NCBI RefSeq assembly: GCF_947623445.1
Contig: NC_135248.1
Location: forward strand, 10,602,977 to 10,666,976
Reading direction: 5' to 3'
Source of the DNA: Clavelina lepadiformis
Taxonomy: Eukaryota; Chordata; Ascidiacea; Aplousobranchia; Clavelinidae
Length of the DNA stretch: 64,000 nt
Part shown: positions 13,728 through 53,626 of the stretch, piece by piece
How positions within the stretch are numbered: position 1 is the stretch's first letter
Layout: each line of letters begins with the position of its first letter
Program-made: the position numbers and the translations under genes
The notes under the pieces: generated by a model
Seen by the model: the letters and a program-made list of their open reading frames with translations, nothing else
What the model was told of the DNA's origin: nothing
Database searches by the model: none

Positions 13728-16700
13728 CTATCGGTGCTCGGGTTCATCATAGCAGGGGTCATGACAAACAGCATCAGAAAGTTCAATTGCAAAGTCCTCG
13801 GTCAAACTGGCAAAACCTTCGCGGAATACAAAGAGATGATTCTTCACGCCGACTATGCTTTCAAGCTGGTCGACGTCAAGTTTACCACGCGAGGACTGAA
13901 CTCCAAGCGCAAATATCTGAAAATTGTATATGTAGAGAGTTCTGTTACCACGTGAGAAATTTACTGGTAAAAATGTTTATAGGTTACAAAACTCAGCCTG
14001 TATAATACGGAAGCCTAAGACGCAACACTACGCGTTGCGGCTTAAGTGCACAATAAATTCAGGTCGTTGCTTGCTTATTTAGAACTTTACCAGGACACCC
14101 TTGTTTCGAAGTTTCATCACCGCCACGTCATCCTGAGATTTTCCATCAGTCAGCACAATCACCACCTCCTTTGAATCCTCTCTACTTCCCATACGTGAGG
14201 AAAATACTATGTTCAGGGCGTACCTTAAAGCCCCGCCAGTATTTGTTCCTATGTCGCAGATAGAAGCAGTTAATGTCGAAGGTCACGCTGGTAAATGCAT
14301 GTCAATGTCCACGATCAAGACATTTACCGCTTCCATCATAGGGCATGGCTCTTATCTTATTCAACAGGGCGGCTTTGCCAAATCTCTTTCCGTAGTTGAA
14401 CGGCACAAAACTCTTCCGGTTCATCAGTTCATCGGTTCGCAACTCTTTCTTCAAAACTTTACTGTTGTACCGCATCACAGCAAAGCACTTACCGTCTTCC
14501 ATGATCTCGTGCGCTCTGAAATGTCACTAAAGCTGTTATTCAATGACGTCGTAACTACGTCATTGTTTTGCTCTACCAGTTGAAGCTTTAACTTGCCTGA
14601 CTATAGTTTGGACGAAGTTGGCCATAATTCTCCAACTCGACAAACCGACTGACGACGACGAGTCGAGAATGACGAGCACGTCCATCAAAGGGTTGTCAGG
14701 ACAAGGCACTGCAATTAAACAAAGTAAAAATTTTGACGCAACTTTTCACAAGGTTCAGATTATACTTCAAAGTTCTACTGTAACAGCCGATTCCCGGGGA
14801 TGCATTGCATTGCTTCTGTAGGGTCTGACTAAAGCTTGTAATTTCCAGTATTGTTTCTGTATATGTCGCATTTCGTATTTTAACCGAAGATCGCAAAACT
14901 GTCGGCGCTCCGGCAAGCACCGGCAGCACTGCACTCCCGCCATTTCCTTCAAAGCATCCGAAGTTGAACCTACTTGAGCAGCATGGCGCTATCTCCGACC
15001 AAATTTGATCCACGAGGCAGGTCGTTGTTGGTTCATGGAGAGGTGCAACTCTGTACTTTCCCAAGCAGGAGTAGGTACATTTTGAATCGACGATCTCGTC
15101 CTCCATACACGTCCAGTTACCGTTTATAACAGGATTCAATTCAGGGCAGAAGTTCCCTGTAAAAACACATCGTTGACTTTAGGCGGGAAACGACAACGTT
15201 CAAATTTACAGGGACCATCAGGCGAAGTAGTGTTGTGTAAATAACGGGAAGTGATTGAATTTGCTCTACAACGATGCGGAAAAATATCGATTTACTTTCA
15301 CAAACTGGCAGCAAGTTCGTCCACGTCGCGTCACCTTCGACATTTTCAATGCAAGTGCTTCTTCATGACCCAATAAAGCTCGCAACTTCTGAGCATTTGA
15401 AATTACAGGTGGAACCAACCGTGTCGCCATCGCACTCGACGCTACCAAGGGGCGGAGTTAGCGGCGGTCAACGCTCTGGAAAATGGAGAAAATATGTCAA
15501 ATTTTGAGAAAACTCTACTAAGTTGCTTATATGGCACTGAATGAAGATCTTTATGCAAGCAATAGTCATAGCATAGAACTTGAGTCATTTACGTTCAAAT
15601 ATATTTTATAAAGTTTCTTTAATAATTATTGATTTTTCAAATACATTGCAATGGGCAAACATCGACAAAGTATGGCAAAGTTGAAATATGAATGATGACA
15701 ATTTGCCGTTCGTGTTTCCCACGTTAATTAAGGGTTTTGATCACAGATATTTTAAAACGCACTTACACAGGTTGGTATCTCTGTGGACCATCTTGTATTT
15801 CCGTCAAATTTCTCTTGACAAATTACTGTCTCGGACCCAATCAGACCATACCCAGGGTCGCAAGTAAACTCACAAAGAGTTGATGACGTGTAAATCTCAA
15901 ACGAACATTGCGCCTTCCCACTTGCCAGCGTAAATCTCCGGCAACGTTCTGTAAAAGAAGATTTTGCATCGTACAAAGTGTTTACTGTTCCATTGCCTTC
16001 GATTTTCAGAACAATTTTGAACTTAGCAAGCGAGTATGAATGATATATGTATATCAGGATAACTTGCCAATGTTGGGAGCTAAGCCTCATATGTAAAACG
16101 AATACAAAAGCCGAAGCAATAAAAAAATAAATATTTTGCGGAGTTGTTTGTGGGTATACTCCATCGCAAATGTATAAAAAGATTGCAGCATGGACGGAAA
16201 TGTTTACATTATGATTGTGTTTTCCATTATACCGTTGGTAGTTTTGTTTGTGAATGCACAAAGGAACATCTCGGCTTTAAATTGGATAACTTATATAACT
16301 TTCAACTCACTTTCACAAATCGGCGGTGACGTTGACCACGTGGCCACACCTGCCTCATTCTCAATGCAAATTGCACTTTCCTGACCTACCAACACTTCTG
16401 TTGGTGGACATTCGAAATTACAAACTGCTCCTACGTGGCCACCACTGCAGGTGAGGCTTCCACTGGTGAAAGAGAGCGACGGACACAATTCTATGGGTTA
16501 TAAAAATTTATAAAAAATGCTTTAAGAGCATTTCTTTGCTTAATATGATATAAGCTGTTGGCGCTCAAAACGAGCTCGTAATTATATGTTAATATCGACA
16601 ATTGAAAGAAAATTGTTCAGAGCAAGTTACTTTTGCAAAGTGGCGGATCTTCAGACCAAGCGACCATTCCTTTATCGTTATCATGACAAGATGCGACTCT

Positions 16701-16735: not shown

Positions 16736-17496
16736 ATTAACGAAGCGTGGTCCGTGCGAAGAAGAAAAGGTGTGCCAAGATAACATCGAAATTTCTGCAC
16801 CCCATAAACAATTGCCAGGAGCTCCTTCCTCGTGGTGGAATAATTTCTTTCTGCTTTCGTTGAAGACCTACTTGCGTATGAAACTGGGTGCTCTTCACCA
16901 TCTACAATCTGTGACAAAACACAGCCAAGCGAAGAATTTGAAGCATCTGTATCGAGGATGAACTACTGTGTAAAGTCCGGGTATCTCAATACCGGGTTTG
17001 TCACGAGTGCGTCTTTCAACAAGTTGAATGAGTGTAAACATTTATCATTCCAGCAGAACTGTTTTTGAGGCTTCATCAAATCGTACAGTGGGGCCGCAAT
17101 TTTGGCAAAATCTCTGACAAACTTGCGATAGTATGATGCGAGTCCCAAAAACTGCCTTACATCCTTTATCGACGAGGGCACAGGCCAATTGGAAACCGCA
17201 GAGAATTTCTCCGGATCGCAGGATACACCAGATTTTGAAACCACATGACTCAAGAATCTAACTTCTTCTTTGAACAAATTGCATTTAGACGGTTTAAGTT
17301 TGAGGCCACCTGCAACTAATCGGGAAAGCACGTCGTCCAAGTTGTGCAGATGATCTTGAAAGGTGCCCATATATGATGATGTCATCCAAGTAAGCCAATG
17401 CACCATTCCATTCAACCCCATCGAGCACAATCCGCATCAAGTGCTGAAACGTGGCAGGTGCGTTTGCTAGTCCAAACAGCATAACATTAAAATTGA

Positions 17497-17640
17497 ATAT
17501 CGGTCGGTGTTATCGGTATTATCGGTATTATCGGTATTGTCGGTATTATCGGTATTATCGGTATTATCGGTATTATCGGTATCATTGGTATTATCGGTAT
17601 TATCGGTATTATCGGTATTATCGGTCGGTAATATCGGTAA
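17497..17640. repeat. Minisatellite, 9-bp unit (ATCGGTATT)n
   Basis: About 15 copies of a 9-bp unit with few variants (TCATTGGTA, TTGTCGGTA), lying inside the Gypsy fossil between its protease and reverse transcriptase parts. Because the period is a multiple of three, it is open in several frames and yields Arg-Tyr-Tyr or Asp-Asn-Thr runs, which are artefacts of the repeat. Confidence 0.9.
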
Positions 17641-19300
17641 CATCGGTCGCTGGCTTGTCAACCTTTTCCGATATACAACATAATGAGTAGGCATTAATGT
17701 ACGAAACATTTTCGCCAACAATTGGTATTAAATTTGTAACATTTGTCCCAGCCGGAATGCACTTGCTTTTATTCGTAAAATTGGCAAGTCTAACAGGCAC
17801 CAAATTTTCCTTAGTTTTTGTTACGTAGTTTGCGCCTAAGATTTCGTATTTGTCTAGTAGGCTTGCAGATCTCTGTATAAAAACGTCGTTAGACTTGGAC
17901 TTTGTCGGGCGTTTAACATTACAGGGCAACACAACCTCAGTAAACGCGGGGATAAGCAGTGACTCAATTAATGCAATCGAAGAACATTGCAAAATACCTG
18001 GTTCTCTCAATAACAGTAATGTTCCTCCACCAGCCCTGAGTGTCATCATATCATAGTCAACGATACAACCATGGTCTTGAAGAAAATCCAAACCCAGAAT
18101 ACAAGACTCCGACAAGTTCTCCGCAACAAAAAAGTCGCGAGTGGCCTCTATTCCGGCAACGGTGAAGTTTAGCTTTGCTTTTCCTGCCATCGCGATAACG
18201 GTTCCGCTCGCGCCAAGAAATCGAACATTTGAAGGGCAGTCATTTAAATCTTGAGCGGAACATTGTTGGAAAGCCAAATGAGATATGACAGTAATTGATG
18301 CACCAGTGTCAACAAGCGCAAACAAGGGCTTACCATTAATGATAACGTTAACGTTAACGTACCTATATTGTTCTGCAGAGACGGTCTGTATCTTGTAAGT
18401 GACCAATTCTCGTTTTGGCTGTGGTGATGGATTCAGGGACGGACACCTGTGCCCGCCCCGTTGGCGTTTCCCTGGCGGTTGCGTTGAATACAATATCGAC
18501 TGATGTGTCCCCTTTCTCCGCATGCAAAACACGTGCGTGATTCCCGGGGGCGAAAGGGATGAATGTGGTTAAGACCAGACCTCCGCGATATCTCCGATAG
18601 TGATTCACGCAAGGTGTCAACTTCCTGCCGCAGATCTTGGATCCTTTGTTTCATTTCCTCGAAAGCTGATGGGCCTTACTTTATTGGCTGTATTTTGGAA
18701 ACGTGTTGTTGCACATGCGCAGGTTCCATCATTAATAGCTTTTTGACAACATCTAAAAACTTTGGACACTGTACCTCCATGTTGCACGTGACCAGCCTTT
18801 TTGCTTCATGTTTGTTACGCAGTCCAGCTATTAAAGCGTTATACAAGACGTTATTCTTCGTACTTTCATCTTCCGGTTTCGGGTATGCAATTGCACCCAA
18901 ATTGACAAGGGCGTTGACGTAACTTCGATTCGTTTCACCTAATACTTGGGTTCTTTGTATAAGCTGTTGTTTGGCCTTGTTATATCGAAGTGAGCAACAA
19001 GCAACTTCATCAGCTTTGGACTTTAGTTCTTCGTAGTTAATGGTGCCGAACTCTGCACCGTTGCATTTCATTTCCAACTTCACCTCTTCCGGTAAACTGA
19101 GCATAAAAGCATGTTTTCGAGCAGCTGCTGTTGGGTCCACACTGTCGCAGAAACTTTCCAACGTTGATAAAAACGAGCTAAAACTTTCTCCAAGTTCAAA
19201 CTTCGGAGGAGGGCAAAAAAATTCATCGCGGATAAAACTCGGTCCAGATCACTTTCTTTATACACGTTTTGAAACTGCAGGTCCTGCCGTGCTCGCCAAA

Positions 19301-19657: not shown

Positions 19658-21033
19658 ATGTGCTGTCGGTATCCAGTAGACGCAGACGCTCTTATTTGTC
19701 AAACTATTATTGAATTACTGCCATAAAACTTGCAAATATGGCAGCGCGATCGATGGGGCAAGTTTCTGGTCAACTTCCTCCTATTCTTAAAGCCTGGCTG
19801 CAGTATATGACTGAACCAGCTAGGGTAAAAACCGATTTCCACTCATACTGGCTTCCAGTGGGCCGTTCCTTTAGTGGTTTAATTTTATTAAATCATAATA
19901 TAAACAAAAAGATAAAAATCCACAAATACAAGAAAGAAATATAGGCCTAATATGAACGTGTAGGACTTTAGGTTATTGTTTTTTTTCCAATACAAATTGG
20001 ATGTTTGTTTTATTAACACAAATAACTTGCACGCGCCTACTACCGGCAAAAATACGCTTCATCAGCAGCTAGTTAGTCGCCGCGATCTACAATGTAACCA
20101 AAAATGCAAAAAAAACTGAAACGCAATAGGAACGTATAAAACTGTTGAATAAAATAACATGCAATCAAAATAAAGATTACAAAAAATCAAAAAAGTGTTT
20201 ATAGACATAGCTTGTGCAGGCCTATAGGCTAGGATGTATTTGTTCACACTAATATCATTTAACATGAATGAATCAAGGTAAATGACGAAACATGCAGAAA
20301 TAGGGTATTAAAGTTGACAGAGTCATATTTTAGAATGTTTACTTTCCAACACCTTTGCTTTGACATTTCGTCTGATAAACCAAAAAATTTTGCTGAGCCA
20401 GCAATCCTCGCGGCTAGAACCTTGTTTGATCAAGGTTGAGCGTTTCATACTCATCTTTTATAAAATAGCTTTGAAAAGTATTTAATCGGTAAATATTTGC
20501 AAATCATACATTTCCGCAAGGTTCCTGGACAAGGTTCAAACGATGAAAATTTAGCTGATGCTTCGTTTATAAAACGTCTTTGTAGCTTATTGCTGGAGAA
20601 TGAAGTATAGCCACTAACATATTCCCGTACAGCAGGTTAAAATATCTTTCATTTAGATGAAGAAAGTGTCTTGGGCTACTTCAAATCATAGCCTACCCAA
20701 CTACAGGAGATGAAAATGAGCTTGCTTGAGCCAATTTAAGTAAAGATAATACTGAAAAACTGCTGATAGATACTCGAGAATGCGTACTGCTTAAGTATAT
20801 AGTTTCGCGAGCCTCGTCGTGGTATTTTCCTGATGATATCTGCATTCGATATCGCAGCATTATTTACAACTTCAAACAAACGTATAATAGTCAGGAAGCA
20901 AGAAAAGAGCTGTCTTTCTAAGTTCTGAACCCATTTTCTCTAAATCCAAATGTTGTAAACTTTCGTTGACGCTTCTTTGCGAATTATTCTTAGTGTTGTT
21001 ATTCTGTCAAAACTTCAGTATAATTCAGTAAAA
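19658..21033. other. No recognisable gene
   Basis: AT-rich spacer between the Gypsy fossil and the racemase-family gene. The promoter of the downstream plus-strand gene should lie in its right-hand part, but I see no clear TATA box. Confidence 0.5.
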
Positions 21034-23262
21034 ATGGGAGAATCTGAGGAGTTTTTTGAGCCTGGAACAGTTGTCAAAACAATAGAAATGCACTGCGGAG
21101 GCTCTCCTATGCGCATTGTTGCGTCCGGTGTGCCGAAACCCAAGGGTAATACTTATGATGAACGTTTTAATTATCTCAAAACCAAGCAAGACTTTGTGCG
21201 TCGGTACGTTTTATGTCAATAAACAAAAATATTGCAATAGTCTATTAGCTACAAGAGTTTAATAGAGTATCTATTTTGAGCAAAGTCTTGTTTTCTTGTG
21301 CTTATCCAAAACGAAATGAAAACCAAAATGAATGCTTTGAACTGAATTTGTCACAGGACAAAGATAATAAGCTCTTGTACATATCTTCAAAAAAGATGCC
21401 ATTATCCCGTTCAATCATATTCATGGTATACAAATTGACTTTTCAGCCTACTACTTCTACCACTTCTAAGATGCATTCCATTTTAAAGATTTGTCACCAA
21501 CGAGCCTCGGGGTAACAGAGACCTGGTGGTAGCTTTGCTCATGGAGCCAGACAAGGAAGCGGACCTGGGTGTGGTTTTTTTATCCGTTGGATCTTATCTC
21601 GCTATGTGTGGTGAATCTACTCTATGCACTTGCCGGTATTTAGTGTTGTTTTCTAATTGCATCTCAATTAAGCGTAATTCCACTAAGCTTGTATACCTTT
21701 CAGCGGACCGTTTGTGCATAAGGCCTATAAGCAGAGTCGTAATAACTCGAGTCGCTTTTTGCAAACACTGGACTTGAGTTCCTTTCTAAAAAATAACTTC
21801 AAAGACTTGACTTGACTAGATTCAGTATTTCCAAAACATAGACTGGACTTGGATCGGTCCTTTTTGATTTCAGTATTAAGGTAAAACGATTTTTTTCTTT
21901 CGTTTAAACCATCAAAAGTGTAACTAGAAATAAAGCTTGCTTGTCCATGAGTGCGTTCGTGGCAGCAAAACGAAGCAAGTTTTCAACATTTTAAACGTAT
22001 ATTGTTGATATAAACTGCTTCTTTGCTTTCTGTGTGGCTTGGCTTCATATATCGATTGACTTGAGTTTTTTTGCTACATGACTCGACTCGAGTTATTTTT
22101 TCCAAAAGATTCGACTTGATTTGCGACTCGAGTTTGACGACTTGGTTACGACTCTGCCTATAACCAAAATCTCTCAGTTGGTGGTTCAGCTCAGTATACT
22201 TTTAGGTATGCCGTGGACAATGGTTTGGTGAAGTACCAAGAACCTGAGGTAAAATTTACTTTGCAATGTCCATGCGGATTGGTGGAATGCTATGTCCAGT
22301 GTGCCGATGGAAAAGCAGGAAAGGCTCGCTTTCATAGCGTGCCGTCATTTGTTCACACACCCGGTATACTGTATGCTATACACCTTACATTTCGTTTACA
22401 AAAAACAGATTTCTTTTTGCGCAAGCTGCTGCAAAGTAGGCCTACTAAAGTAACGAAGTCATGGCCATGTTTCGTGCATTTACAGGGGTCAGTTTAATGC
22501 TCCCCAACGGACAAAGCGTCAAAAGTAATGTGGTGTTTGGTGGGGCGTTTTATCTGCTCGTAGATGACTCTGAGCTTGGCTTCGATGTCAAAAAGTTTGA
22601 TTACAAGAATAATATGAGTTTGTTGGCAAACTTGGAAAGAGAAGCAAATAAGCAAGTAGGCCTAATATACCAGTTGTAGTCACCAACTTAAAATTGTCAA
22701 TATTTACGAGAATATTTTGTTTTTCGCAGATAAAAGTATCTCACCCTGACAAAGACATTAAAATTATTGCGGGATCGATTATAAAAGACAGCAGGACCGA
22801 AACATCTTACCACATAATCACCTTGATGGAGGATTGCGTGAGTTTGTTTGCAATCATGTTAAATGCAATTGGCGATAACGTGCGTATGTGATAAAAATGT
22901 GCATTATATCTTACGATTCTATCAAGATTGTTCGTGGTTTCTGTGGTTCAGGATCGACTACAAGAGCAACTCTAGATTACTTCAGTGGTCGTCTTAAGCT
23001 TGGAGAATCACGGTTGTACGCAGGTGTAATTGCTGGTGGAGCGTAAGTCTAAACTGTAAATAACATTCATTTTTACCACCACCTTTTGCGAATTTTACCT
23101 TCATCTTTGATATACAGGACACGTGCAACGCCGTTAAAAACCTGTAAGATTGGAAGATATGACGCAGTCGTCATTTCCATAGAGGCAAAAGCTTATTATA
23201 CTGGACGAAATGAGTTAACGTTTGAGTCGGATGATGATCTGAAAGGAGGGTTTGAAACCTGA
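21034..23262 (+). CDS. L3HYPDH: Proline racemase / trans-3-hydroxyproline dehydratase family enzyme
   Basis: Seven exons (21034-21203, 21489-21635, 22206-22363, 22486-22655, 22730-22837, 22927-23042, 23118-23262) give 337 residues, close to the 354 of human L3HYPDH. Landmarks in order: MHCGGSPMRIVASGVP, NEPRGNRD, MCGES (first active-site Cys), CPCGLVECYV, RFHSVPSFV, VVFGGAFY, SHPDKD, FCGSGSTTRATL (second active-site position) and KAYYTGRNEL. The family isomerises proline or dehydrates trans-3-hydroxyproline in the cytosol. The second position is Cys, as in true proline racemases, not the Thr of animal L3HYPDH. However, the His after the first Cys-Gly is Glu, and the Asp of the usual DRSP motif is Val, so activity is uncertain. 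I chose the ATG at 21034 for its AAAATGG context; an in-frame ATG at 20977 is an alternative. Confidence 0.9.
21732..22156. mobile_element. hAT-like MITE in intron 2 of the racemase-family gene
   Basis: A 425-bp element with terminal inverted repeats CAGAGTCGTAA / TTACGACTCTG, flanked by CCTATAAG and CCTATAAC (8-bp target duplication, 7 of 8 identical). The interior is rich in ACTCGAGTC-like words and codes for nothing. 8-bp duplications and CAGAG ends fit the hAT superfamily. A relative lies at 59423-59884. Confidence 0.8.
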
Positions 23263-24266: not shown

Positions 24267-24823
24267 CTATAAACCGCATTTTTCATAACTAACATCTATA
24301 GATCCTCCCTCAGCGCTTGGATATCTATCGGTAAGCTTTGATGCAGCTACTGGCCTGATGGTTATGGTGATTGGCACGATTCTACCTTTTTCTAATGTGT
24401 CTGGGTTTTTTCCCAAGTATAACTTTACTTCAGATTTGGGAAGGCCTTGATCCATGGACTGATCATAGAACTTTTCATAGGAGAAGAGTTCCACAATCTT
24501 TTGCTGTTCCATCTTTACTGCACGAGCTTGCAAGTGAGATGTAAACCAGACCTGAACCAAGCAACATCTGCGCGCCATCAGGGAGTTACTGTCTTTGTCT
24601 TGGTGGAGAATGATCCCATCATCAAATTTGTCTAGAACTTTCTGTATCATACTTTCACTTGATGCTGGAGGGAAATCAAAACGATTGAAACTTTCTACTG
24701 AAGTGCTTTGGCAGGATGTCTTGTGGTAAAGACAAGCGGGGGAATGGCGTAAACTTATTTCATTTTTTGGTCGAGCATGGTTGCCATACTCCAGCTGTAT
24801 TTCAAACTGATATAGCTCATTGT
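24267..24823 (-). CDS. Exon encoding an IRF association domain (IAD)
   Basis: Single 557-nt exon after a TTTTACTACAG acceptor, entering in phase 1. It follows the IAD of interferon regulatory factors along its length: LYQFEIQLEYG (first strand), FNRFDFPPAS, VLDKFDDGIILHQD, ARRCCLVQVWF (IRF5: AIRLCQCKVFW), QQKIVELFSYEKF, KSEVKLYLGKNPD (IRF: EIFFCFGEEWPD) and VPITITIRPVAAS. The IAD mediates IRF dimerisation and binds phosphorylated pLxIS motifs on adaptors. No IRF DNA-binding domain was found in the window. The unspliced frame upstream meets TAA before any ATG, and the first internal Met lies about 60 codons in. The exon therefore needs an upstream partner on the minus strand; the nearest is the last KEN exon. 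Confidence 0.8.
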
Positions 24824-27800
24824 CTGTAGTAAAAGAAAATATTACAATACTGATGGTGGTTCTTGATTAGTACATGCAGTTTATTTCCATCATTTTTAGT
24901 CTAGTAACAAAATAGAGGACTGAAGTAAAGCAACGACGTCAGATTATTTTTTTAGAAAACCTGGAATATTTTCTTTGCGAAACAAACTCATCCATTCATT
25001 GCATTCAGGGTCGATAGACTTTTTCTTTTTTTTTCTTTTGGACTTAGGACTCACAGATGGTTTCTTTTTATGCGGAGATTCATCAACTTTTAACGAAACA
25101 TTCGCCAGTTGTCGTGATATTTGTGGGGATGCAGGTGGAATCGGTGTTCTGCAAAATTGGAGCAGTAAATACAGCATAAAGCAAAACATAACATAACAAA
25201 ATTGACAGAGACAACCAACTTTAAAATATGCACAAACTTTTTATAACAAAGATAAGGCACTGTACTGAACTCTAGATTATTTACCAATATTTCACCTACG
25301 TTTTGTAAAACTCGATTGCAATATTTTTGTCTCTAAATGATTCATAAAGATGAACAAGCAACTGTGGATAAGCTCCAGTAAGACTTTCTAAAAACTTATC
25401 CCAGTTTGTAATCAGTCCGTCCATTCCTAAACATTCCTTTTCTGCATTTGACTTCTCAGCATCACGACCATGAGCTTCCTTAATTGAGAAACAAAATAAT
25501 CCCGGTGAAAACATAACCATACGCAAATCCTTGTACAGAGTGTCTATGAAAGGCATGACACGAACATACAGATGAACCACTATGGCATGTAGGATTAATT
25601 AAAACTACAAAAACTAAAACTTATGATTGCAATTGTCCAAACTTAAAAAAAGCAACAAAAGGTGAAAAGAATCTGCAAAGCTCACCATATTTCGGATTAA
25701 CGTCAGCAATTGTTGTAGGTTGCTGCATTCACTAAAATATTTGTCTGTAATAACAGGCTGGGGTAAATGGGAGCTTTGTATCTGAAATTTGGTTGTTTTT
25801 CTATCCATGCCTTTTTGGAGTAATCCACGGTCGTATATGCTTAAATGTTGTAATTTGTTTGGTGCGATGTGTCGCAGATGTGTATTTAAAGTCTACATGA
25901 AACGCTTGGGTTAGTTAGTTAAAAACCTTAGTGAAGTTAATCAATGGCAAAACAGAGAAAACAATTGATTGACTTTGTTATAATAAAACGACACCTTGTA
26001 AAATTCCACTTTTTCCTTAGAATTCCAAAAACTTGGGTGCTTAAGCACATTTGCAATCGTAAACCGATCAGCAGGATTATGCTTAATCATTCTTCGTATC
26101 ATATCACATACAGTCACATCATGTTCCTTTATAACTAAATAAAAACAAATGGATTGTCTACATCCAAAATATGCTTAAAATAGTTTAAAAAATGGTATTG
26201 TTATGACATCTCCTGCATATTGTTTTGCACTAAACACACATGATATCAAATTAATGAAGGGAGTTTAATATTATTTTGAGTCCAACTAACAAGATTTCAA
26301 AAAATATATTCTGCGTCTTAAAACCAATGTTATTCTTGACTGACCATTAGGACTTTTCAATAAAGCTTCAAAATTAGGAGTTTTTCTCTCTCGAATATTT
26401 CCTTCTTGTTTATAACCCTTACTGCCAAACGGATGAAACCCTCCAGTTACCACAAAGTGAATGAACACACCAAGAGAGAAAATATCTGCTGTCATTTTCT
26501 AAAAAGACATACTATGTATACATGACGCATATACACGAAAACTAGTTTTTCAAAGTATATGTAAATAGAACTGCACATGAATGGTAAATGAAAAGACATG
26601 TTTAGAATCTGTCCTTTATGCTTAGTCCATCATGTTCGATATTTAAAAAAACTATCACTGCTTGCCAAGACAAAGCTATACTGTAAAGATAAAATTGCTG
26701 ATATGGATATGACACAAATAATGCAACTAAATTATAATCTGTTAACAAAGGTTTTGATTGTTGTTGTCAAATATTTTCATAACATGACAACTACTGGTAT
26801 TTGTAAGCAAATTAATTGCCATGTTTTACTGGTCACATGTTTAAAACATCACTACGTATATAATTATATCCATGTGTTTTGTTCAGCATGGCAAAATGCA
26901 CAATCTAGTGATAAATACATTGTACATACCCACTTGGATCCATGATCATAGCATTCCTGGGGCATGTATCCTCGTGTGCCATTAGATTCTGTGTAGATAC
27001 CAGACTGATCTTGTAAGAGCTGCCTGCTCAGACCAAAATCTGATACTTTCACTAGTGTTTTGCCTTTGCATTTGACAATCAGAAAATTGCTTGGTTTAAT
27101 ATCTCTGTGAACTAAAAATATAATGGAAAATAACATAATTATTCCAAAGAAAGAAAAACGCCTTCGTAAATTGTATTAAGACTCACTGAGAAGTTATACC
27201 TTACCGGTGTATGTGGGAATGTTTATAATAGAAATGTTCAATTTCTGGCATATTCTACAATAGTTTTTCCTAATCCAGTATTGCCATTAAATGTCTATAC
27301 TTTCATATCCAATTATGACATGATTTAATATCAATGGCTAAATTTTGATAGCAATCAGTTCTGCAATCAGTGACTTGAAGAACTGAGTACTTATATGTAC
27401 AGACTACGCATTCTGAAATGAACAAAATTGACTGCTTGGAACAATTAAAACAAGTCTGGCTCATATCAGAAAACTGGTTGCTAAGGATGAGAAAAGGCAA
27501 AAAATGGCATTTAATGAATTTGGTTTTTAAGGAATCAGTGTTCCATAACATACATTGGTAGTTGCACATAATGCTAGTGTGAGATCATAGAAATAAGCTT
27601 TAAAACGGTAGCTAACTCGCAGTACTGTATGTGAAGAAACAATAACTCACTGATATCATTGCTGTGTAAATATTCAACTCCCTTAACTGCTTGCAAACAA
27701 ATTTGCAGTGGGGTGATATCATTGAAAAATTCCTGAGGGGTAACATTTGGTTGAGTTTCGGGTTGCATTTCTCGAGTAAATTTATTTTCCACAAACTAAA

Positions 27801-29381
27801 AAGAATAGTGTTAAATATTTATATTGTATATGATACCTTATTTACAAGAGCTCTCAAAGTCAGTTAAGTACAGCATACAACTACTTCGTTTACAAGATTA
27901 TAATGTATATTATAGCATTTAAAAACCAAAGAAAAACTTATGATTGTTAAAAAGATATATCAACCTCATCCTCACCTGCTGCACTGTTGCATCACATAGT
28001 TCCATATATATGACAATGGTCAGATCCTAACATAGAAGCACGACGCATTACAACAAATACCACAAGTTTACTTTGATGATTTACCAACTTGCTCTTTAAA
28101 TATTCATTTATTTACATTTATGTGGCATTTGTGTACATTTGTGCTTGGTATCATAAGCAGAAAGTTAGTCATACTATTTTTGGAATAATGTAAACAAACT
28201 CATTTTTAAGTATATTGGTTTACTGTACGTCTATGTATCATACTGGTATCAGTTTACTGGAAAAATAAACAAATACTTAATATCCCATAATATTTACAAA
28301 GTTTCAAAATAGCTTCTGGAAAATTGTTTCTTTTCTGTAATGTAGCTATATTTAGTCAATTACTTTATCAAAGTAATCAAAATAGTGTACGATGTTTTCA
28401 TGATTCTTGGCCACTTCTTTTAAGATTTCAATCTCATTTTTTAAATTGGTGTAAGTTGACTTGTTGACTTCTTTTCCAGCACAAAGTGATTCATCATTCT
28501 TTTCACATCTATATAATAAAAAGCATTGTTTTTGTAAAAGATATTTTCTTTGAGTATATTTCAGGTACAGGTAGTTGTAAGAAAGTATCAGTAGATGTTA
28601 ATGCTAATAGTTTATATTGGCATTTTAACTGCTGGTCTTTCAATTTATGATAAAATTAATTTTATATGCGACAGATTTGATTATTCTATTTGTTTTTTTA
28701 TTTCCTTGTTTTCTATCATGTCATTTCCTGCAATAACGTTTAGAGAGTGCAGACAAAGGTTCTATTTTGTCACTAGAATAAGTTCATCATTACATGCAAT
28801 TGGTTGTTAAATCATGTTACCAGTAAATGCTCTGCCCACTTTTTAAACCACAAAATAGTTCCCATATCCAACTATATAACATCATGGTATGGATCAAAAC
28901 TTGCATAATTTTTGGCATTGTGAGTGTTGCTTTAGTTGTTATAATGTTGTTAGAATTAGTTTTGAAATTAAATCAGCCTGTACCTATATATCTATTTTAT
29001 TTACTTATTCATGGTGAGTATTCTATTTTGTCTCAAGTCAAGTGGGAAGAACAAAGATTATAGATTATCTGTTGCAACATAGAAGACATCAATTTTCTCA
29101 CAGTGCTGTAAAAGTGCTAAATTCACAATTTTCATTTGCATGTATGTAAAAGGAAGGTGCTAATGAAATGAATTTAGATTAAGTCAGAAAACTAACAGAC
29201 GACACTTCTAAATAAATTTGTTTCATTATTAGACAGGTCACTTTGTTTTATCCCAATGGAAAAAGTTTTTAAAAGTTGGTTAATAGATCTCAGCAAAATA
29301 CATAGAATATACAACTTACACAAACACAACTCCACCCTGGCCCCCACCAGCTATCTTGCGTAGAACTTTATAAGGTGGCAT
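24267..29381 (-). CDS. Kinase-KEN endoribonuclease (IRE1/RNase L type) with predicted C-terminal IRF association domain
   Basis: Exons: 29320-29381, 28364-28508, 27976-28026, 27651-27795, 26930-27111, 26345-26498, 25995-26134, 25686-25892, 25300-25478, 24961-25148 (or to stop at 24944) and 24267-24823. Phases agree throughout; the total is 2010 nt (669 aa), or 489 aa if it stops at 24944. The kinase part has GGGQGG, AGKEV with the ATP Lys, HRDIKPSN, DFG and ADIFSLGVF, so it looks active. After VLKHPSFW comes a KEN RNase domain with IRNMEAH, matching the catalytic Arg, Asn and His of RNase L (IRNLGEH), then AYPQLLVHLY. A Lys-rich linker (KSKRKKKKK) follows, then the IAD. An in-frame TGA lies 9 nt before the ATG, so no ankyrin or luminal part precedes the kinase here. 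The kinase-KEN part is firm; the join to the IAD rests on a weak donor (CAG/GTTTTC). Confidence 0.8.
24880..24885 (-). terminator. Internal polyadenylation signal AATAAA
   Basis: Canonical signal about 60 nt after the TAA at 24944-24946, inside the predicted last intron. It would end a short kinase-KEN transcript that lacks the IAD exon. Confidence 0.45.
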
Positions 29382-33473: not shown

Positions 33474-35970
33474 TTAATCAGCGTATTTCGTACGTTTGCG
33501 AAGTGAAACGTTTTTAATTTTTCCATCACCTAAACTCACACGGGATTGTTCACCAGCAGTAGAAACCTGTATGGGTAAAAGCAAAGATTAACTTTGTTTA
33601 TTATTCGGCATTTAAAGTAAATATCCGTATAGGCTATAATTAAGCGAGCTGTGTACGACAACGTTCTGCTTATTCACACAGAAAACAAATCGTATACCTT
33701 CTTCTGTTTCGCTTTCTTTCCAACAATATAAGTTTTGTAGAAGAAATTGGCAAAAAGTGCAAGATAGGAAGCGTACATGACACTTCCCGATATTTTATGA
33801 ATAGGTGACGATGAACAACCGTACTCATCGCCCCAAACCACAATTCCGTACATGACAGCGCAACCTATTATCATTTGGGCAATCTATAAATGAAAACAAC
33901 GTTAACCTTGTTTACCAACAAAAACATGTAAAACTAACAGGAATTTTTTCCGAAAAAATCCACAAGATATGTTTTAAAAGCGAAAGAAACGAAAGTGCTG
34001 ACAAAGTGCGTTTATAATTAAAAAGTATCATGATTTATATACACATTGTTCACATATTACATTGAGTTATTGAAAATTAAAGATCGAAATCTGGACTTCT
34101 TGATAACCATTTATACCAAGGCCTACGCCACATAGACTACAACAAATGATAAGTTGTCCAATCACCTGACATCCAGTAATGACAACAGCCAAGGCACGTG
34201 GGAGTTTTATGCCTGCCGCTCGAAAAGCATAGTAGCTGTACATCAACGAATGTATGGCGTAGTTGGCTGTCATAAATATCCAACCACCTGTTGGAGAAAA
34301 TCAAGGCGCATGTAAGTATAGTGCAGTGCCAGAAAAACCGTGGTACAGGAATGAGGCGTGTCATATGGCTATAGCAATGTTATAATGCCATTACAAGGCA
34401 TTAACAGAATATGATAAATGCATTGCATGGTATCGGGATAAAAACAACTCCTCGAACAGAGAAAGGCTATAGACAATCGAAACCCAACCATAATTCATCA
34501 TAAATAGATTCCCTGTCACCAAGCTTGTCTGTCCACATTATCCAATAAATATATTTTTTTTTTTTTTAAAACCAGAATCCGGAACTATACAGTATTTACC
34601 AGGATCACCAAATTGGAATAATTGTCCTTACATAATACCTTGCTCAAAAGCATTACAGCGACAATGTATATAAACCCAACTTCCAAAATACCCTTGTTTC
34701 AAATGCGTATAGAGAGTCTAGAGACACATTACAATCGATCTATACCGTACATGATCTTTTACCAACGATGCTATTATCATACCTGGGTATTTTCCGCCAA
34801 TCATGAGCCAACAAAATAAAGCAACTGTCATATGATGATACCAGTGAAGAAAAATTAAGTTTTGCTTTCGGAACACGATGAAGGTTGTGTCAACTGCAAG
34901 AAAAACTCTGTTGTTAGAGGTTCTATAATTAAACATGATATTTGCCAATACTTCACGTGTGTTTCGTTTTACGAAAAGCGATTGTAAAACCTACAGTTTA
35001 ATAAAAGATACATATAGGAAAGTTCCACGTTTTAAGTGTTAAATTTTGGTTTAGTGTGATATAGAATCCTTTATCTTTGGACTGAGGAAATCTTTGCACG
35101 ACTCAAACTCCGCGATGACTCCTCATCGCTCGAGACCCGGTTGAAGAGCGAGCCGTTGTGCAAGCACCGATAGATTCACATCTTTTATTTTTTCGTTGTT
35201 TAAATAAAATTGCCCGAATTTGAAGCTGTTCATCAGTATCACTGAAAAGGGGCAAGTGTCGTTTACGCCGTGCATTACAACTCTAACGCCACCTGGTATC
35301 GAACACGAAGTGTAGTAGTGTTGCAGCCCAAGCGTTTTAACCACTCGGCTACCGAATCGATTTGGGTCTTGATCAAAACCAAATTAATTTTGTTATGCAG
35401 GCAACAATAAACGGAATAACTCACTGTACTCTAGAAACTTGCTCAGAGGAAAGAGCGCAGCCCAAAAGCGTGTTATGGGTCCGTAGTAAATGATTCGATC
35501 GCAAACCACCGTTGCCAAACCTTCCGTTTGAAAAGCAAACGCCATCACTGCTGACGTGCGAACAGTCCCCACTATACTGAAGATGGCCAACAACGACGAC
35601 CATATCATCATAGGCTTACGTAAACTGAAGCTGCAAAAAGGCAATTGTTTGTTGGTTTGTTTTCATAGGTATTAATTGCGTAAGCTACCTTGTTCTGTTC
35701 TTCATATATCTTTGTCCACCAAAAACCATCAGCAAATAAGCCGCGCTGCAGATTATGGGGATTTCCCATGTCTGACACAGCGAAGTCACCCAAGGCTCTA
35801 CAGGATATTTCTCCAATTCCCACTCTTAGAATAAATTCACAAAGATAAATTCTCATTTACTAACTGACATAAGCTTCAATGAACTTGAAATCCTTAAGGT
35901 CGATTGAAAATTACATACCGTTAAGGGAGAAGTTTTTCAGTTTTTCTTTCCAAGCAGGTAAATTTTGCAT
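33474..35970 (-). CDS. ELOVL6: ELOVL6-like fatty acid elongase, copy A
   Basis: Seven exons: 35919-35970, 35689-35824, 35425-35630, 34783-34893, 34166-34287, 33698-33883, 33474-33566; 301 aa. ELOVL enzymes catalyse the condensation step of fatty acid elongation in the ER membrane; the ELOVL6 type prefers C12-C16 acyl-CoA. Visible family motifs are LSKFLEY-DT (KxxExxDT across the exon 3-4 join), HWYHH (HxxHH), HSLMYSYY (HxxMYxYY) and TGCQIAQ (TxxQxxQ across exons 5-6). Between them lie hydrophobic segments such as [15 protein letters not shown]. Exon 7 gives a basic tail ending SLRKRTKYAD. A second ATG directly upstream (35973) could be the start. This copy has a distinctive WLMIGGKYPG after the His box, and an open read-through into intron 5. 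Confidence 0.92.
34067..34165 (-). other. Open read-through of exon 5 in copy A, resembling exon 6
   Basis: If the exon 5 donor is not used, the frame stays open for 32 residues (VIGQLIICCSLCGVG, then GINGYQEV) before a stop. The residues parallel the true exon 6 start ([15 protein letters not shown]), and the DNA is similar too. The other three copies show nothing similar here. It may be a relic of a duplicated exon 6, or an alternative C-terminus. Confidence 0.4.
35071..35362 (-). mobile_element. tRNA-derived SINE in intron 3 of elongase copy A
   Basis: The minus strand begins with a tRNA-like head (GGTAGCCGAGTGGTTAAAAC and the B-box GTGTTCGATACC). A body follows that is shared with 54524-54806, for example 'gcccgaatttgaa' and 'ctgttcatcag' on the plus strand. 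The two copies sit in different introns, so they are separate insertions. Confidence 0.7.
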
Positions 35971-42079: not shown

Positions 42080-45000
42080 TTAAGCACGTTTTCGTAAAGA
42101 TCCGCCGTTCATCTCCCTATCATCAACTTCCATTCGAAATTGTTGACTTGAATCAGAAACCTTCTGCACATGTAAAAACAAAAGTAAACAATGACATTCA
42201 TGTAACTGTTCCGAATGCCAGGCGGAAAATGGTAATAAACAGTAGAGCCAGTTCTTACTGGTTTCGCCTATAAGAGGGCAATTCACTTATATCAACATCT
42301 TTCTTTGTTCTGTACAAAATTGTTACCCGTATGCGTATGTATCACTCACATTCAAATGAGTTTATTTACAGCCGCATTTTATCAAGTGGATATCGATCAC
42401 ATCGCAGGGTTTTTTGCCCCAGCGTAATTTCATTCTTTTACAACAGCAATTCAAATTGCATAAAAAAATTACAGTTTTTATTTTATATTCTAAGACAAAA
42501 GATTTGCAAAATCTCTTTTCAGCAAGAAGACGGTAACAAGTCAACTTGCACATCCGCCCCGTGATTTGAAATTTAGAGTTGAACACAAATGTTATCGTCA
42601 TACACATAACAGTTATTATAACGTAGCCTAATGTAAAATGAAATTTTCAAAATGGTTCTGTCAAGCATAGATTAAATAACTGATTAAACCTTTTAATTTT
42701 TGAAATTATTTGCAAGTTCTGGAGCATTTTCCATGCTGTTTGAATGCTTATCAGTTTGTAAGCTCTCTGCAGCTTAAGAATCAAATCACTAAAACAGCAT
42801 AAACAACTTGAAAAATGCTTTAGCACTTAGCCTATCCGGTTTATTATATAAAGGTTCGTCTACAAAATCGTTTGATGTACATCATTTCATTTTTCAAATT
42901 TCCTCGAGATTCCATTGTATTGTAATAGAACTAGACTGAAATAAAAACACATTGACATTCTGACAAATCGTGTTATACCTTCTCTTGTCCCTGTTTCGCT
43001 TTCTTTCCAACAATGTAAGTTTTGTAGAAGAAATTGGCGAAAAGTGCAAGATAGGAAGCGTACATGATACTTCCCGATATTTTATGAATAGGTGACGATG
43101 GACAACCGTACTCATCGCCCCAAACCACGATTCCGTACATGACAGCGCAACCTATTATCATTTGGGCAATCTATAAATGAAAGCAACATTAACCTTGTCA
43201 AAATGCCTCGTTTACCAACAAATGGATTGGAATTGGAAGAATTTATTTTCTAATTAGCAATCAAATCATCTGAGATACCTGAGATATAGTTATAACCAGC
43301 GCAAGCGCACGCGGGAGTTTTATGCCTGCCGCTTTCAGCGCGTAGTAGCTGTACATCAACGAATGTATAATGAAGTTGACTGTTACAAATATCCAACCAC
43401 CTAAAAAAAAAATTCGGAGATGCAAATAAAAATAATACAATTCGATATATTACTTTGCATCGTTTGCGGTTTCCAAACTCTATCTGATCATTACCCACAT
43501 TTCACATATGGCCTTTATTCATGGCCCATCTCCTACCGTTTCATCTTTCGTGAAAAAAGTGACTGTCTGTATTCCAATACATTTGTTTAAGTCCAAAATG
43601 AAAATTTCCAGCGAAATGCGACATTTTTTATTTTCATACAGAAGTAGAAAAAGTAAATTAAACGAAATAAAAACTTTAACCAAAATAAACTTTATCGTTT
43701 ATAATGAATACGCGACCCCTTTAAATTTACTCCATGTGCCCTCTGGGGAGCCACGGTCACCAGTTTGGTAACTACTGCGTGTACAATTTGGAAACAACCA
43801 ACAACTTTCTAGCATGTAGTCAATAAGGGTGTAAAAAAGCGTAAAAGGGCGTAAAAAGAAGTGTGCTGATATTCACCGCATTTGAGTCATATTACATCAC
43901 GAACACATCATAAAAGCGTTGGTCGTACAGTACCTCCATATTGGCTGCTGTATATGAGCCCGGTAACAAATGCAACCGTTATATGATGATACCAGTGAAG
44001 AAATATCAGGTTCTGCTTCCTAAGTACGATAAAGACGGTGTCAACTGCAAGAAAAAGTTGTTGTTAAAAGTAACATTGATTATGTTTTCAAATGCCAAGT
44101 AACGTACCAAACAAGCTACGGTGAGCACAGTGCCAGTGGCAATTGTAGGAAAATTCTTATCAGTATAGCATCGTAATCCCAATTGTAGAAATATGTATAT
44201 AGGCTACAGCACGTTATACTTTTTAAAATCAAAACAGCAATATCCCTAGTTATATGCATGCGAAATATTTTTTGAAAACAATACATTCTGACTTCTGAAA
44301 CGGAGCAGCGCATGCTAGATGCGAAGAGATGCTGCGTTAATCTGATTCTCTCATTCATACACATAGCGCATCGTATCCTTTCGGTTTCGACATTTACTGG
44401 AGGGGAATGAGTTTTAAGAGTTTGGTGTTAACCTTGTTGTCTGCCACAAGAAAGCGGAAAGCACACACGCTTTTTAATGTCAGTTCAGTTCGGCCGTTGT
44501 TCGTGTTTAAATACTAAGTTACGCCGTCTCCATTACAGATGTTTGTTAGTTATTGAAGATTTGCGTATGGTCAGTAACCGCGTCTCATATTCCATCGTTA
44601 CAACAAATGTGCTACAAAGGAACACATAATTGAATGCAATTGCAGCTCGAAACATAGATGACTGCTGTAAAGTGTTAAAATTTTATAATAGTGATTAATT
44701 ATGAAAGCAAAATAATGGAAGCTTTTGTTAATAAAACACTTCAACTCGACTCTTAATAAACAAAATTTTGAAAATTGCGTGTCTGTCATATTAAAAATTT
44801 GTAATTAAGTTGCCCGGTCATATTGCTTTAACTGGCTTTATTGTGTTATCGCTAATTCCATTGCATCGTTTTATTAACAACGGACAATATTAATAACCGT
44901 CTGCACTTTTAAATGTTTCTCTTTTTTCTCGTACTGGTATAGTGCCACATTTATTCCGGGCGTTGTGACGTTGAGATGTCGCATGAATCAGGGTACGTTT

Positions 45001-46637
45001 TCGGTTCAAAAAACTTGGAGGTTGCCGTCAGCTTTAAGACAAACTCACTAGGTTAGAAAGCTAACTTATAAATAAGAAAACACCACATACAAATTTACAG
45101 GGAAATTTATGCTGACTCATGCGATATTTTCACGTCACAATACCTTAACAGATTTGGCACGACATCGGCATGTACGTTACGCATATAGTCGCTTCGCTTA
45201 ATACCGTATTATTATTCTTAATAAGGAAGATGCTAGTCCGAAACAAGTCTCTGCTTTTTTTGCAAATAAATGAGTTATGACCCTTTTAGTATTACTTGTG
45301 TTATTAGGAACTACTTGGTGCTTAAAGTCAACTTTCTCTAAAGCTAACGCGCCCGGTGAATATACAAATAATTATAAAGAATTCCTCTATCTAAGATCAA
45401 AAGCCGCCAATACAAACTAGGTTCTAGTTACTGTATAATTATATGATCTTAATAAAAATGAGATAAGAGTTTTAAAGAAAACATCATGGATCGAATTACT
45501 CACTGTATTCAAGAAATTTGCTGAACGCAAAAAGCCCACACCAGAAATGCGTTATGGGTCCATTATAGAAAATAGGATCACATACGACCGTATGCAAACC
45601 TCCAGTTTGGAAGGCAACCAGCATGACTGCTGACGTACGAACAGCTCCTAATGTGCTGAAGACTGCTAACATGAATGACCATATCATCATAGGCTTACGT
45701 AGGTCGAAGCTTTAAAAAAGGATCATTATAGCATGGTAGCATTGATTGTGATAGGATACATGATGTATTCTTCTTAGTCTACCGTGTTTTGTCCTTCATA
45801 TACTTTGGCCCAGCAAAAATCATCAACAGGTAGGCAGCAGTGCAGACTATGGGAAACGCCCATGTCTCATAAATAGGTAAAACCCAATCTCCAACCGCAT
45901 ATTGCTCCACTTTCCATTCTATGAATGACAAATAAAAATGCTCAATATTTTTGTGAATTATGGAACTTAGTTGGCGCAGCTAACATGCGCAATAAAGTTG
46001 GAAACGTCACATGGTAAGGGTAAAAAGGCCAATTTTATCCTGTAGTGGTGTCGTGCCTACCGTACTGGATTAATTGGGAATCAAAACGCACAGAAAATAG
46101 CCTATAGTCCAACTGTTTAAAAAGCATTTTAATTTTGTGATTGAAAACTAAATGCATAGCTATCAACCAACAGGCAATTAAAAGGTTAAAATTATGCTTA
46201 ATGTTATCTTTAACCGCACATTTTGTTATTGTTCTTTACGCATAAACATCGAATCATGAAACTTGTTTAGAAGTTGGTAGCAGGTCTTCCATTTTATTAG
46301 AATTAAACAAACAAACTATTTTGTTATTTCACATCTAAGGTGGTGCTTTGTGACATCACAGTACGGTATCTCGCATAGCAAGGATATATGACAAAATAAT
46401 AATGAGAAGTTGATGATAGAATTATTGCTTCGTTTCGAAGGAATCAAAGATTCTTGAAATTATTAGTTTTCAACTTTTCATGACGCTCCAAATTGAACTT
46501 TCACCAAATTAAATCAACCTTTTATAGAGGCAAAAGTTAAAGCTTATCAGATTTAACTTGCCACTGAACTAATAGAAACACATACCGTTAAGTAAAGCAT
46601 TTTTTAGAGTTCCTTTCCATGCCGGTAACTCCTGCAT
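42080..46637 (-). CDS. ELOVL6: ELOVL6-like fatty acid elongase, copy B
   Basis: Seven exons: 46586-46637, 45783-45918, 45504-45709, 43934-44044, 43279-43400, 42979-43170, 42080-42163; 300 aa, with exon sizes and phases identical to the other copies through exon 5. Motifs: FSKFLEY-DT, HWYHH, MYSYY, TISQIAQ (TxxQxxQ). This is the most diverged member: exon 2 reads [18 protein letters not shown] where C and D read [16 protein letters not shown], and exon 4 has [10 protein letters not shown]. Exon 7 ([15 protein letters not shown], then GGSLRKRA) ends the protein four residues earlier than in A and D. Introns are longer than in the other copies. The acceptor of exon 7 could be 3 nt further on. 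Confidence 0.9.
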
Positions 46638-53177: not shown

Positions 53178-53427
53178 CACTAAGTTACTATACATATTGT
53201 GCCGAAAATGTACACCAGAGTTGTGCAAATATGTCTCTTAATGCCAGCGGAAAGGGACACAATAACCAACATGAACATTCACAAAATCACAGCTGAGCCT
53301 ATATTCTCATTACAGATAATGGGTAAAAATAGTAAGCCAAGCCGAGAAAAAGACATTCTAATGTTAAACTGTATAAATAATGCATAAGCAAATTCATGCT
53401 AAAATATAACTATCTCCATTGTCGTCA

Positions 53428-53520
53428 TTGGCGGACATATTTTGATTTCAGTGTCGATTTAAATTTTTCCATTAATAGGAATTATTTGGAAGTGCTCAAT
53501 TACTTGAACCCTGCTTGATA
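53428..53520 (-). pseudogene. Decayed exon 7 of elongase copy C
   Basis: Aligns with exon 7 of copy D (60447-60539), including the acceptor (AAGCAG/GGT) and the phrase AATGGAAAAA, but the frame is broken by small length differences and stops. It is consistent with copy C ending in exon 6. Confidence 0.65.
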
Positions 53521-53626
53521 TATAAGTTAAGCAATTTGACTAACATATACGGATATCAAACGGAAAGTATCAGCACAGTAATCAACACTTAAAATATCAA
53601 ATCATGTCTACCTCCTGAAAAATCTG

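Follow-up and report, generated by a model that had tools for sequence, protein, structure and literature searches.

Predicted gene structure at the locus

The minus strand of the window (that is, the whole 64-kb stretch of DNA analysed here) carries 11 exons that, in a splice model built from the sequence, join into a single frame of 669 amino acids without a stop, in which a protein kinase domain is followed by a KEN nuclease domain, a linker and an IRF association domain (IAD). The first-pass annotation had described kinase–KEN exons and a same-strand IAD exon in one 669-aa frame, and the 11-exon model arrives at exactly this length. Exon 1 (29320..29381) supplies the ATG, with an in-frame TGA starting 9 bases 5' of it, and the glycine-rich loop (MPPYKVLRKIAGGGQGGVVFV), and is followed by exon 2 (28364..28508), which encodes the kinase N-lobe (the Lys of AGK and the Glu of NEIEIL), exon 3 (27976..28026; kinase, DLTIVIYMELCDATVQQ), exon 4 (27651..27795; kinase and an inserted loop), exon 5 (26930..27111; the HRD and DFG motifs), exon 6 (26345..26498; the kinase C-lobe) and exon 7 (25995..26134), where the kinase ends (HPSFWNSKEKVEFYK). 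The KEN domain starts in exon 8 (25686..25892), which runs up to IRNM, and its remainder lies in exon 9 (25300..25478), which completes R360-N361-x3-H365 and, if left unspliced, runs into a TAG at 25298-25296.

Exon 10 (24961..25148) encodes a basic linker (KSKRKKKKK) and then an IRF-like tail, EWMSLFRKENIP; unspliced, it would reach a TAA at 24946-24944. Its donor (24960..24961, CAG/GTTTTC) is weak and leaves phase 1, and an alternative in-phase donor, absent from the earlier annotation, lies at 24988/24987 (TGA/GTTTGT). Exon 11 (24267..24823) begins at a phase-1 acceptor (CTTTTACTACAG) and holds the entire IAD, including the stop codon. Between exons 10 and 11 lies an AATAAA (24880..24885) that could direct early polyadenylation and yield a short form lacking the IAD; the variants TATAAA and CATAAA lie before it.

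The start of exon 9 at 25478 is supported by the models of kinase–KEN paralogs, six of seven of which place a phase-0 intron identically, between R-(N/D)-M and xxH; the seventh, L021, gave a different result at this intron and its model is doubtful. A start at 25543 was rejected, as it breaks the frame. The phases of exons 9 and 10 agree at their join (phase 2 on both sides), but given that the GTs within exon 10 cover all three phases, phase agreement alone is weak evidence for a join.

The kinase–KEN part and its relatives

Searched as a whole chain against Pfam, the predicted protein scores 155 bits for Pkinase and 22.8 bits for KEN (Ribonuc_2-5A), the latter narrowly below the cut-off of 23.3; one paralog reaches 26.9. 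When the genome was scanned exon by exon with the KEN model of Pfam, a sole locus was found, at C4:5.50 Mb, and the window locus was missed. Residues 13–410, spanning kinase and KEN, align with solved IRE1 chains (phmmer, E 5e-32). The active-site residues of the kinase (Lys, Glu, HRD and DFG) are retained in the sequence, and the KEN catalytic residues, which in yeast IRE1 are R1056, N1057 and H1061 (PMC3149027), are present as R360, N361 and H365; in an alignment of six paralogs, in which the L021 row derives from the doubtful model, the same columns hold R, N or D, and H. At the position of yeast Y1043, where replacement by phenylalanine carries an approximately tenfold cost (PMC3149027), the window protein has a serine, 13 residues before the KEN Arg by spacing counted from the IRE1 alignment. 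Neither a lumenal sensor or membrane segment nor N-terminal ankyrin repeats (that is, the 2-5A-binding part) were found, as the ATG sits at the kinase just downstream of the in-frame TGA and the frame has nothing before the kinase.

The genome contains at least 18 kinase–KEN copies: the window gene and 17 other KEN exon matches, 13 of which fall within C9:13.8-14.4 Mb. Spliced models were made for seven relatives; beyond the conserved exons they are approximate. All seven share with the window gene two kinase introns (model positions 135 and 196), and six of the seven share the KEN intron. Four relatives stop within ~10 residues of KEN and three continue for ~17 to 50 residues; unspliced exon 9 of the window gene would likewise stop right after KEN, at FYKT. 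An IAD was detectable in none of the seven fetched.

An IRF association domain exon

The assignment of exon 11 to the IRF association domain, already proposed in the first-pass annotation, is borne out by the Pfam IRF-3 model (47.4 bits, cut-off 27; profile positions 2-177 of 180) and by a profile of seven other IADs from the same genome (88 bits, E 2e-25). Searched alone against solved structures, the exon retrieved no IRF and one chance-like match (phmmer, E 0.08); a profile of eight IADs retrieved IRFs, plus two chance-like matches. Structure prediction from the single sequence gave a mean pLDDT of 30. The domain is 20–26% identical to the other IADs of the genome and is without most of the C-terminal tail found in the other IRFs, yet its frame is intact over ~185 codons despite this strong divergence. 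R570 falls in an alignment column with a retained arginine that we take to match the adaptor-docking R285 of IRF3, and for what we take to be the IRF3 dimer residue, R211, a clear counterpart was not seen in the window IAD. The exon would be poor at starting translation by itself, as had been noted before, with its first in-frame Met ~58 codons in.

A candidate phase-1 acceptor, picked by eye, lies just before the domain in all eight one-exon IADs of the genome. No IRF DNA-binding exon was detected in the 64-kb window with two same-genome profiles (the top hit, at E 0.12, is on the other strand) or with Pfam; within the fetched 10 kb, each of the seven other one-exon IADs has such an exon, most of which also served to build the profiles. 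In a Pfam genome scan the nearest DNA-binding domain on C9 lies 7.8 Mb away and adjoins its own IAD. Two IADs at C4:18.96 Mb were considered as orphans without a DNA-binding domain and rejected, given that both possess one. In sequence, exons 10 and 11 together resemble the final two exons of an IRF gene.

Predicted joins between exons 9, 10 and 11

The exon preceding the IAD could be read in five IRF genes, and in these it apparently ends at the same phase-1 position as the disputed donor 24961/24960. The end of exon 10 (EWMSLFRKENIP followed by a G residue split in phase 1) can be compared with FLDVLEKLNMP-A, IVDVLVELKIP-C and WVDILNQSGIE-G in three IRF genes. Of the 3,565 open phase-1 GTs in the window, 4 reach its tail score, itself among them; at 12.0, against 17.0–23.5 for the three IRF tails (each left out of its own profile), the likeness is weaker than that among the IRF tails. 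Exon 10 scores as coding, at a level that one of 359 stop-free windows from the rest of the 64-kb window reaches, and the stretch directly before its acceptor scores as intron; exon 10 therefore seems to need an upstream exon. Composition contributes to this coding score, as another frame of the exon also scores 0.23, compared with 0.34.

Donor strength was judged against a by-eye selection of 40 trusted donors, to which paralogs contributed 25, the window gene 8, IRF genes 5 and the C4:5.50 Mb locus 2. The set is small, repeats some positions and draws only on introns at conserved positions. The exon 10 donor falls below all 40 on the intron side and, as a 9-mer, scores above one of them, with 44% of window GTs at least equal; the exon 9 donor likewise outscores a single trusted donor as a 9-mer, with 36% of all GTs equally good, and seven of the 40 on the intron side. 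The IAD acceptor scores above 24 of 29 other acceptors. The earlier view that a weak donor makes the join of exons 10 and 11 the main doubt thus holds in part: the donor is indeed weak, no better than a chance GT, but IRF genes appear to use its position, and on the sequence evidence we would shift the main doubt to the join of exons 9 and 10.

Alternative gene arrangements

We consider it unlikely that two genes lie here, with the kinase–KEN gene ending at the TAG at 25298-25296 and exons 10 and 11 forming a downstream, same-direction truncated IRF gene, perhaps in an operon with a trans-spliced leader, that encodes an IAD-only protein. The four relatives that stop so soon after KEN would fit such an arrangement, as would an in-frame start inside exon 10 (the Met of EWMSLF) that opens 195 amino acids, although five out-of-frame ATGs lie ahead of it and the stretch 5' of exon 10 is not coding by score, which counts against an independent start at that place. 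Among tunicates, operons with leader trans-splicing are known from Ciona and Oikopleura, and the 147-base gap passes one inferred Oikopleura operon cut-off (413 bases) but exceeds those for Ciona (68 and 84) and the value applied to the Oikopleura reference set (60) (PMC7986045). Between the TAG and exon 10, AATAAA and ATTAAA are absent, although the variant TATAAA is present.

An end of the kinase–KEN gene within exon 10 (at KENIPGFLKK), with polyadenylation after the AATAAA at 24885 and the IAD exon left as a decaying IRF remnant or a minor-isoform exon, seems to us rather improbable. Such an end would make use of the in-frame TAA and the AATAAA (24885-24880) and is consistent with the weak exon 10 donor and with the loss of most of the tail of other IRFs; however, a decaying exon is at odds with a frame kept intact for so long despite great divergence, with the strength of the IAD acceptor and with a donor that sits at the IRF-gene position. 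That exons 10 and 11 look IRF-derived could also mean that they belong to an ordinary IRF gene with DNA-binding exons far upstream and the kinase–KEN gene nested in its intron. This appears highly improbable, as no such exons were detected in the window and the nearest DNA-binding domain listed on C9 sits beside its own IAD. The entry phase also differs: it is 2 for exon 10, but apparently 1, judged by eye, for the pre-IAD exons of the five readable IRF genes.

A probable chimeric kinase–KEN–IAD gene

The locus on chromosome 9 probably holds a chimeric ascidian gene, in which a member of the multiplied kinase–KEN endoribonuclease family has gained the two 3'-terminal exons of an IRF gene (linker tail and IAD), without the DNA-binding domain, and encodes one 669-aa protein. 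We infer a transcript in which exon 9 is joined to exon 10 and exon 10 to exon 11. The fusion proposed in the first-pass annotation is thus upheld with reservation: the IRF-like positions of donor and acceptor, the coding character of exon 10 and the failure to detect a DNA-binding exon in the window favour it, and the weakness of both junction donors and the absence of a detectable IAD from the seven relatives count against it. Use of the stop and AATAAA that follow exon 10 may additionally give a shorter product lacking the IAD.

With nothing before the kinase in the frame and a basic linker, the protein would be cytosolic or nuclear. By analogy with IRE1 and RNase L, gathering of kinase–KEN units would switch the nuclease on, and the IAD might provide the contact (that is, with a phosphorylated adaptor, another IRF or itself), replacing a lumenal or ankyrin sensor; such IAD-driven nuclease assembly, suggested in the first-pass annotation with phospho-dependent contacts, is plausible. 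As a tentative extension, which we hold to be possible rather than probable, the protein could be a one-polypeptide immune effector whose IRF module is the sensor arm: the IAD would dock on phosphorylated adaptors or IRFs and gather kinase–KEN units to destroy RNA directly, without 2-5A or transcription, and the kinase may phosphorylate partners of the IAD. In vertebrates, signalling through adaptors and IRFs and RNA decay of the RNase L type are separate arms of innate immunity. If true, the protein would be a new domain combination that joins the two in the sister group of vertebrates, an RNase L-like effector that gained a new trigger through exon shuffling, and a natural test of whether an IAD can drive assembly when detached from DNA binding.

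Comparison with known systems

The window protein shares with IRE1, its best sequence match among solved structures, the order of kinase then KEN in one chain, the kinase active-site residues and the KEN R-N-x3-H, and differs in having no lumenal or membrane part, a serine at the Y1043 spacing and a C-terminal IAD. RNase L is similarly a kinase–KEN nuclease without a membrane part, and an immune role is probably common to both, whereas the window protein is without ankyrin repeats and carries the IAD at the opposite end; no RNase L chain was among the best 60 of 2,506 solved-structure matches. The IRFs (with an IAD of the IRF3/5/4 type) resemble it in the whole IAD, the phase-1 exon boundary and the similar end of the preceding exon, but in the window protein a DNA-binding domain was not detected, most of the C-terminal tail is missing and the IAD is fused to a kinase–nuclease.

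No kinase–KEN–IAD protein was found among the matches listed in a search of open-access papers, judged on title and the start of the abstract, and the KEN fusion partners named in a HEPN survey are kinase, ankyrin, CCCH, UBI and BRCT, with no IAD among them (PMC3710099). The same survey describes an expansion of solo KEN in Oikopleura dioica, with KEN apart from the kinase; there too, the expansion of KEN proteins is specific to a tunicate lineage (PMC3710099).

Gene model and domains

Rebuilt from the sequence, the exons for the kinase, the KEN nuclease domain and the IRF association domain (IAD) lie on the - strand from 29381 to 24267, as the first-pass annotation had described, and, with exon 9 starting at 25478, the eleven exons form a single frame of the same length as claimed there (669 aa). 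This exon start is supported by the kinase–KEN paralogues, given that 6/7 models place a phase-0 intron at that codon (R-N/D-M, then xxH), with only the model of the relative L021 differing; splicing therefore completes the R-x4-H motif. Chain residues 13–410 align with IRE1 (E 5e-32) and the Pfam Pkinase score is 155 bits; the Pfam KEN family scores 22.8 bits, narrowly below its cut-off of 23.3 (one paralogue reaches 26.9). The kinase Lys, Glu, HRD and DFG are all kept, as are Arg360, Asn361 and His365 of KEN. Of the yeast IRE1 residues R1056, N1057, H1061 and Y1043 named in PMC3149027, the tyrosine differs, a serine standing at the corresponding spacing in this gene. Exon 11 (24823–24267) matches Pfam IRF-3 at 47.4 bits (positions 2–177 of 180) and a profile of the seven other IADs from this genome at 88 bits, and a profile of all eight matches the solved IRF5, IRF4, IRF9 and IRF3 domains together with two chance-like chains.

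The joins between exons

All eight one-exon IADs, including that of the window, have a candidate phase-1 acceptor just before the domain (picked by eye from several AGs, with least certainty for the IRF loci L031 and L029). Of the seven other IRF genes, five have a readable preceding exon (L028, L030, L032, L033 and L034; none was found in L031 and L029), and its presumed closing donor is a phase-1 GT in 5/5. Tails of this exon in three IRF genes (FLDVLEKLNMP, IVDVLVELKIP and WVDILNQSGIE) resemble that of exon 10 (EWMSLFRKENIP). Against a profile of these three tails, the end of exon 10 ranks fourth among 3565 open phase-1 GT positions on both strands of the window, and 3/8859 positions in the fetched loci score as high when the three references are excluded. 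We regard the likeness as suggestive, not strong, because the score of 12.0 falls below the 17.0–23.5 that the three IRF tails reach in leave-one-out scoring. Taken together, exons 10 (25148–24961) and 11 resemble the 3' end of an IRF gene, and the proposed donor (24961/24960) would then occupy the inherited position. This donor is indeed weak, as remarked earlier (1/40 trusted donors score lower as a 9-mer and 0/40 on the intron side; 44% of the window's GTs do at least as well). A better-scoring donor 27 bases upstream (24988/24987; 9/40 trusted donors lower, 5.6% of window GTs as good) is in phase and keeps the frame, and a GT at 25054 has a fair score and is out of phase. The IAD acceptor scores above 24/29 others.

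The main doubt on the fusion is now the join between exons 9 (25478–25300) and 10 instead of that between exons 10 and 11. In favour of the join, exon 9 exits in phase 2, which is also the entry phase of exon 10, whereas the readable IRF pre-IAD exons appear, by eye, to enter in phase 1. Against the join, no further exon was seen after KEN in the relatives, and exon 9 read without splicing ends immediately (FYKT*, TAG at 25298–25296). The exon 9 donor (AAC/GTAGGT) likewise is weak as a 9-mer (1/40 trusted donors lower) and scores in the low to middle range on its intron side (7/40 lower). The exon 10 acceptor scores above 12/29 others. Coding scores again speak for the join: exon 10 has 0.34 bits per codon, a value reached by 1/359 stop-free windows elsewhere in the window and helped by lysine-rich composition, as the remaining two frames, which contain 6 and 3 stops, reach 0.23 and 0.09. 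The stretch directly upstream of its acceptor is intron-like (-0.36 to -0.46 over three frames); the IAD exon scores 0.20.

Alternatively, the kinase–KEN and IAD parts could be separate genes of an operon resolved by leader trans-splicing, which we consider improbable. Such resolution is reported for Ciona (median gap 1 base; inferred cut-offs 68 and 84 bases) and Oikopleura (medians 31–57 bases; cut-offs 413, inferred, and 60, hard) in PMC7986045. Here, 147 bases separate the KEN stop from exon 10. Neither AATAAA nor ATTAAA occurs from the exon 9 stop down to 24885, a point in favour of the exon 9–10 join, although the variants TATAAA (25245) and CATAAA (25072) are present. The AATAAA at 24885 lies about 60 bases from the IAD acceptor, a gap that would fit an operon; however, a break there leaves the IAD without an in-frame ATG for about 58 codons, in line with the earlier claim that this exon cannot start translation by itself. 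With a leader on exon 10, the first in-frame ATG (195 aa) would instead come only after five out-of-frame ATGs.

Relatives in the genome

In the genome scan (209.06 Mb, 95 contigs), a 53-aa exon 9 query from L021 matched at least 18 places: 13 at C9:13.8–14.4 Mb, two on contig C4, one each on C2 and C6, and the window. The C9 matches (at least 13, C9:13815539-14376427, outside the window) form an array on one strand, and the array together with the C2, C6 and C4 copies is a predicted expansion of RNase L/IRE1-like genes. Scanned exon by exon, the Pfam KEN model matched solely at C4:5.50 Mb and missed the window. Among the 7 of 17 non-window loci fetched and modelled, two kinase introns are common to 7/7 and the KEN intron to 6/7, with the remaining introns in fewer; the frame ends within about ten residues after KEN in four (L021–L024) and continues for roughly 17 to 50 residues in the three that lie in the C9 cluster. 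The genome scan for the IAD scored 17 candidates and gave 11 matches, none of which coincides with any of the 17 other KEN exons; in the seven fetched loci, searching with profiles for an IAD found nothing above chance.

Two profiles from this genome detected no exon for an IRF DNA-binding domain across the 64 kb of the window, their best match (E 0.12) lying on the + strand. Each of the seven other one-exon IAD genes has such an exon on the same strand within the fetched 10 kb, with the caveat that most of them also went into the profiles; two further IRF loci, whose IADs are split (C9:2.81 Mb and C4:22.72 Mb), stand outside this comparison. Five divergent IRF genes are clustered on both strands at C4:18900000-18970000, outside the window.

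Proposed mechanism

In IRE1 and RNase L, the nuclease is switched on by assembly of kinase–KEN units. One Arg is invariant across the eight IADs (R570 of the fused chain), which we take to correspond to R285 of IRF3; R211 of IRF3 has no clear counterpart in the window IAD, which also lacks most of the C-terminal tail present in the other IRFs of this genome. Activation through kinase–KEN assembly is described for IRE1 (PMC3149027), and in IRF3 the phosphorylated pLxIS motif of adaptors docks, via R285, on a basic surface of the regulatory domain, while dimers form via R211 (PMC7672473). We suggest that the IAD of the fused protein would dock on a phosphorylated partner; this seems more likely than IRF3-style self-dimerization because the R285 match is kept, an R211 match is unclear and the tail is mostly missing. 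The linker motif KSKRKKKKK is a possible nuclear signal. In a survey of the HEPN superfamily, the fusion partners given for KEN are kinase, ankyrin, CCCH, UBI and BRCT, and expansions of KEN are noted in Oikopleura (PMC3710099). Among the papers listed by searches of an open-access library, none was seen to describe a KEN–IAD protein. The kinase–KEN–IAD arrangement would be a variant on a known kind, with a predicted, unproven join.

Neighbouring features

A gene of the proline racemase family has exons at 20959–22679 (+ strand; one of two ORFs above cut-off) and points towards the 3' end of the predicted fusion gene. On the - strand lie LTR-retrotransposon-like remains, scanned as they stand (16963–18568; aspartyl protease above cut-off, reverse transcriptase and RNase H matches weak), and two ORFs with Sushi (SCR) repeat matches (14696–16276; one above cut-off, one just under). 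Four diverged copies of a repeat unit (33704–35835, 42985–45871, 53369–55843 and 60388–62628; about 75–97% identical in pieces) are perhaps tandem fatty acid elongase genes, given that one copy overlaps a weak, below-cut-off ELO-family match (62475–62852).
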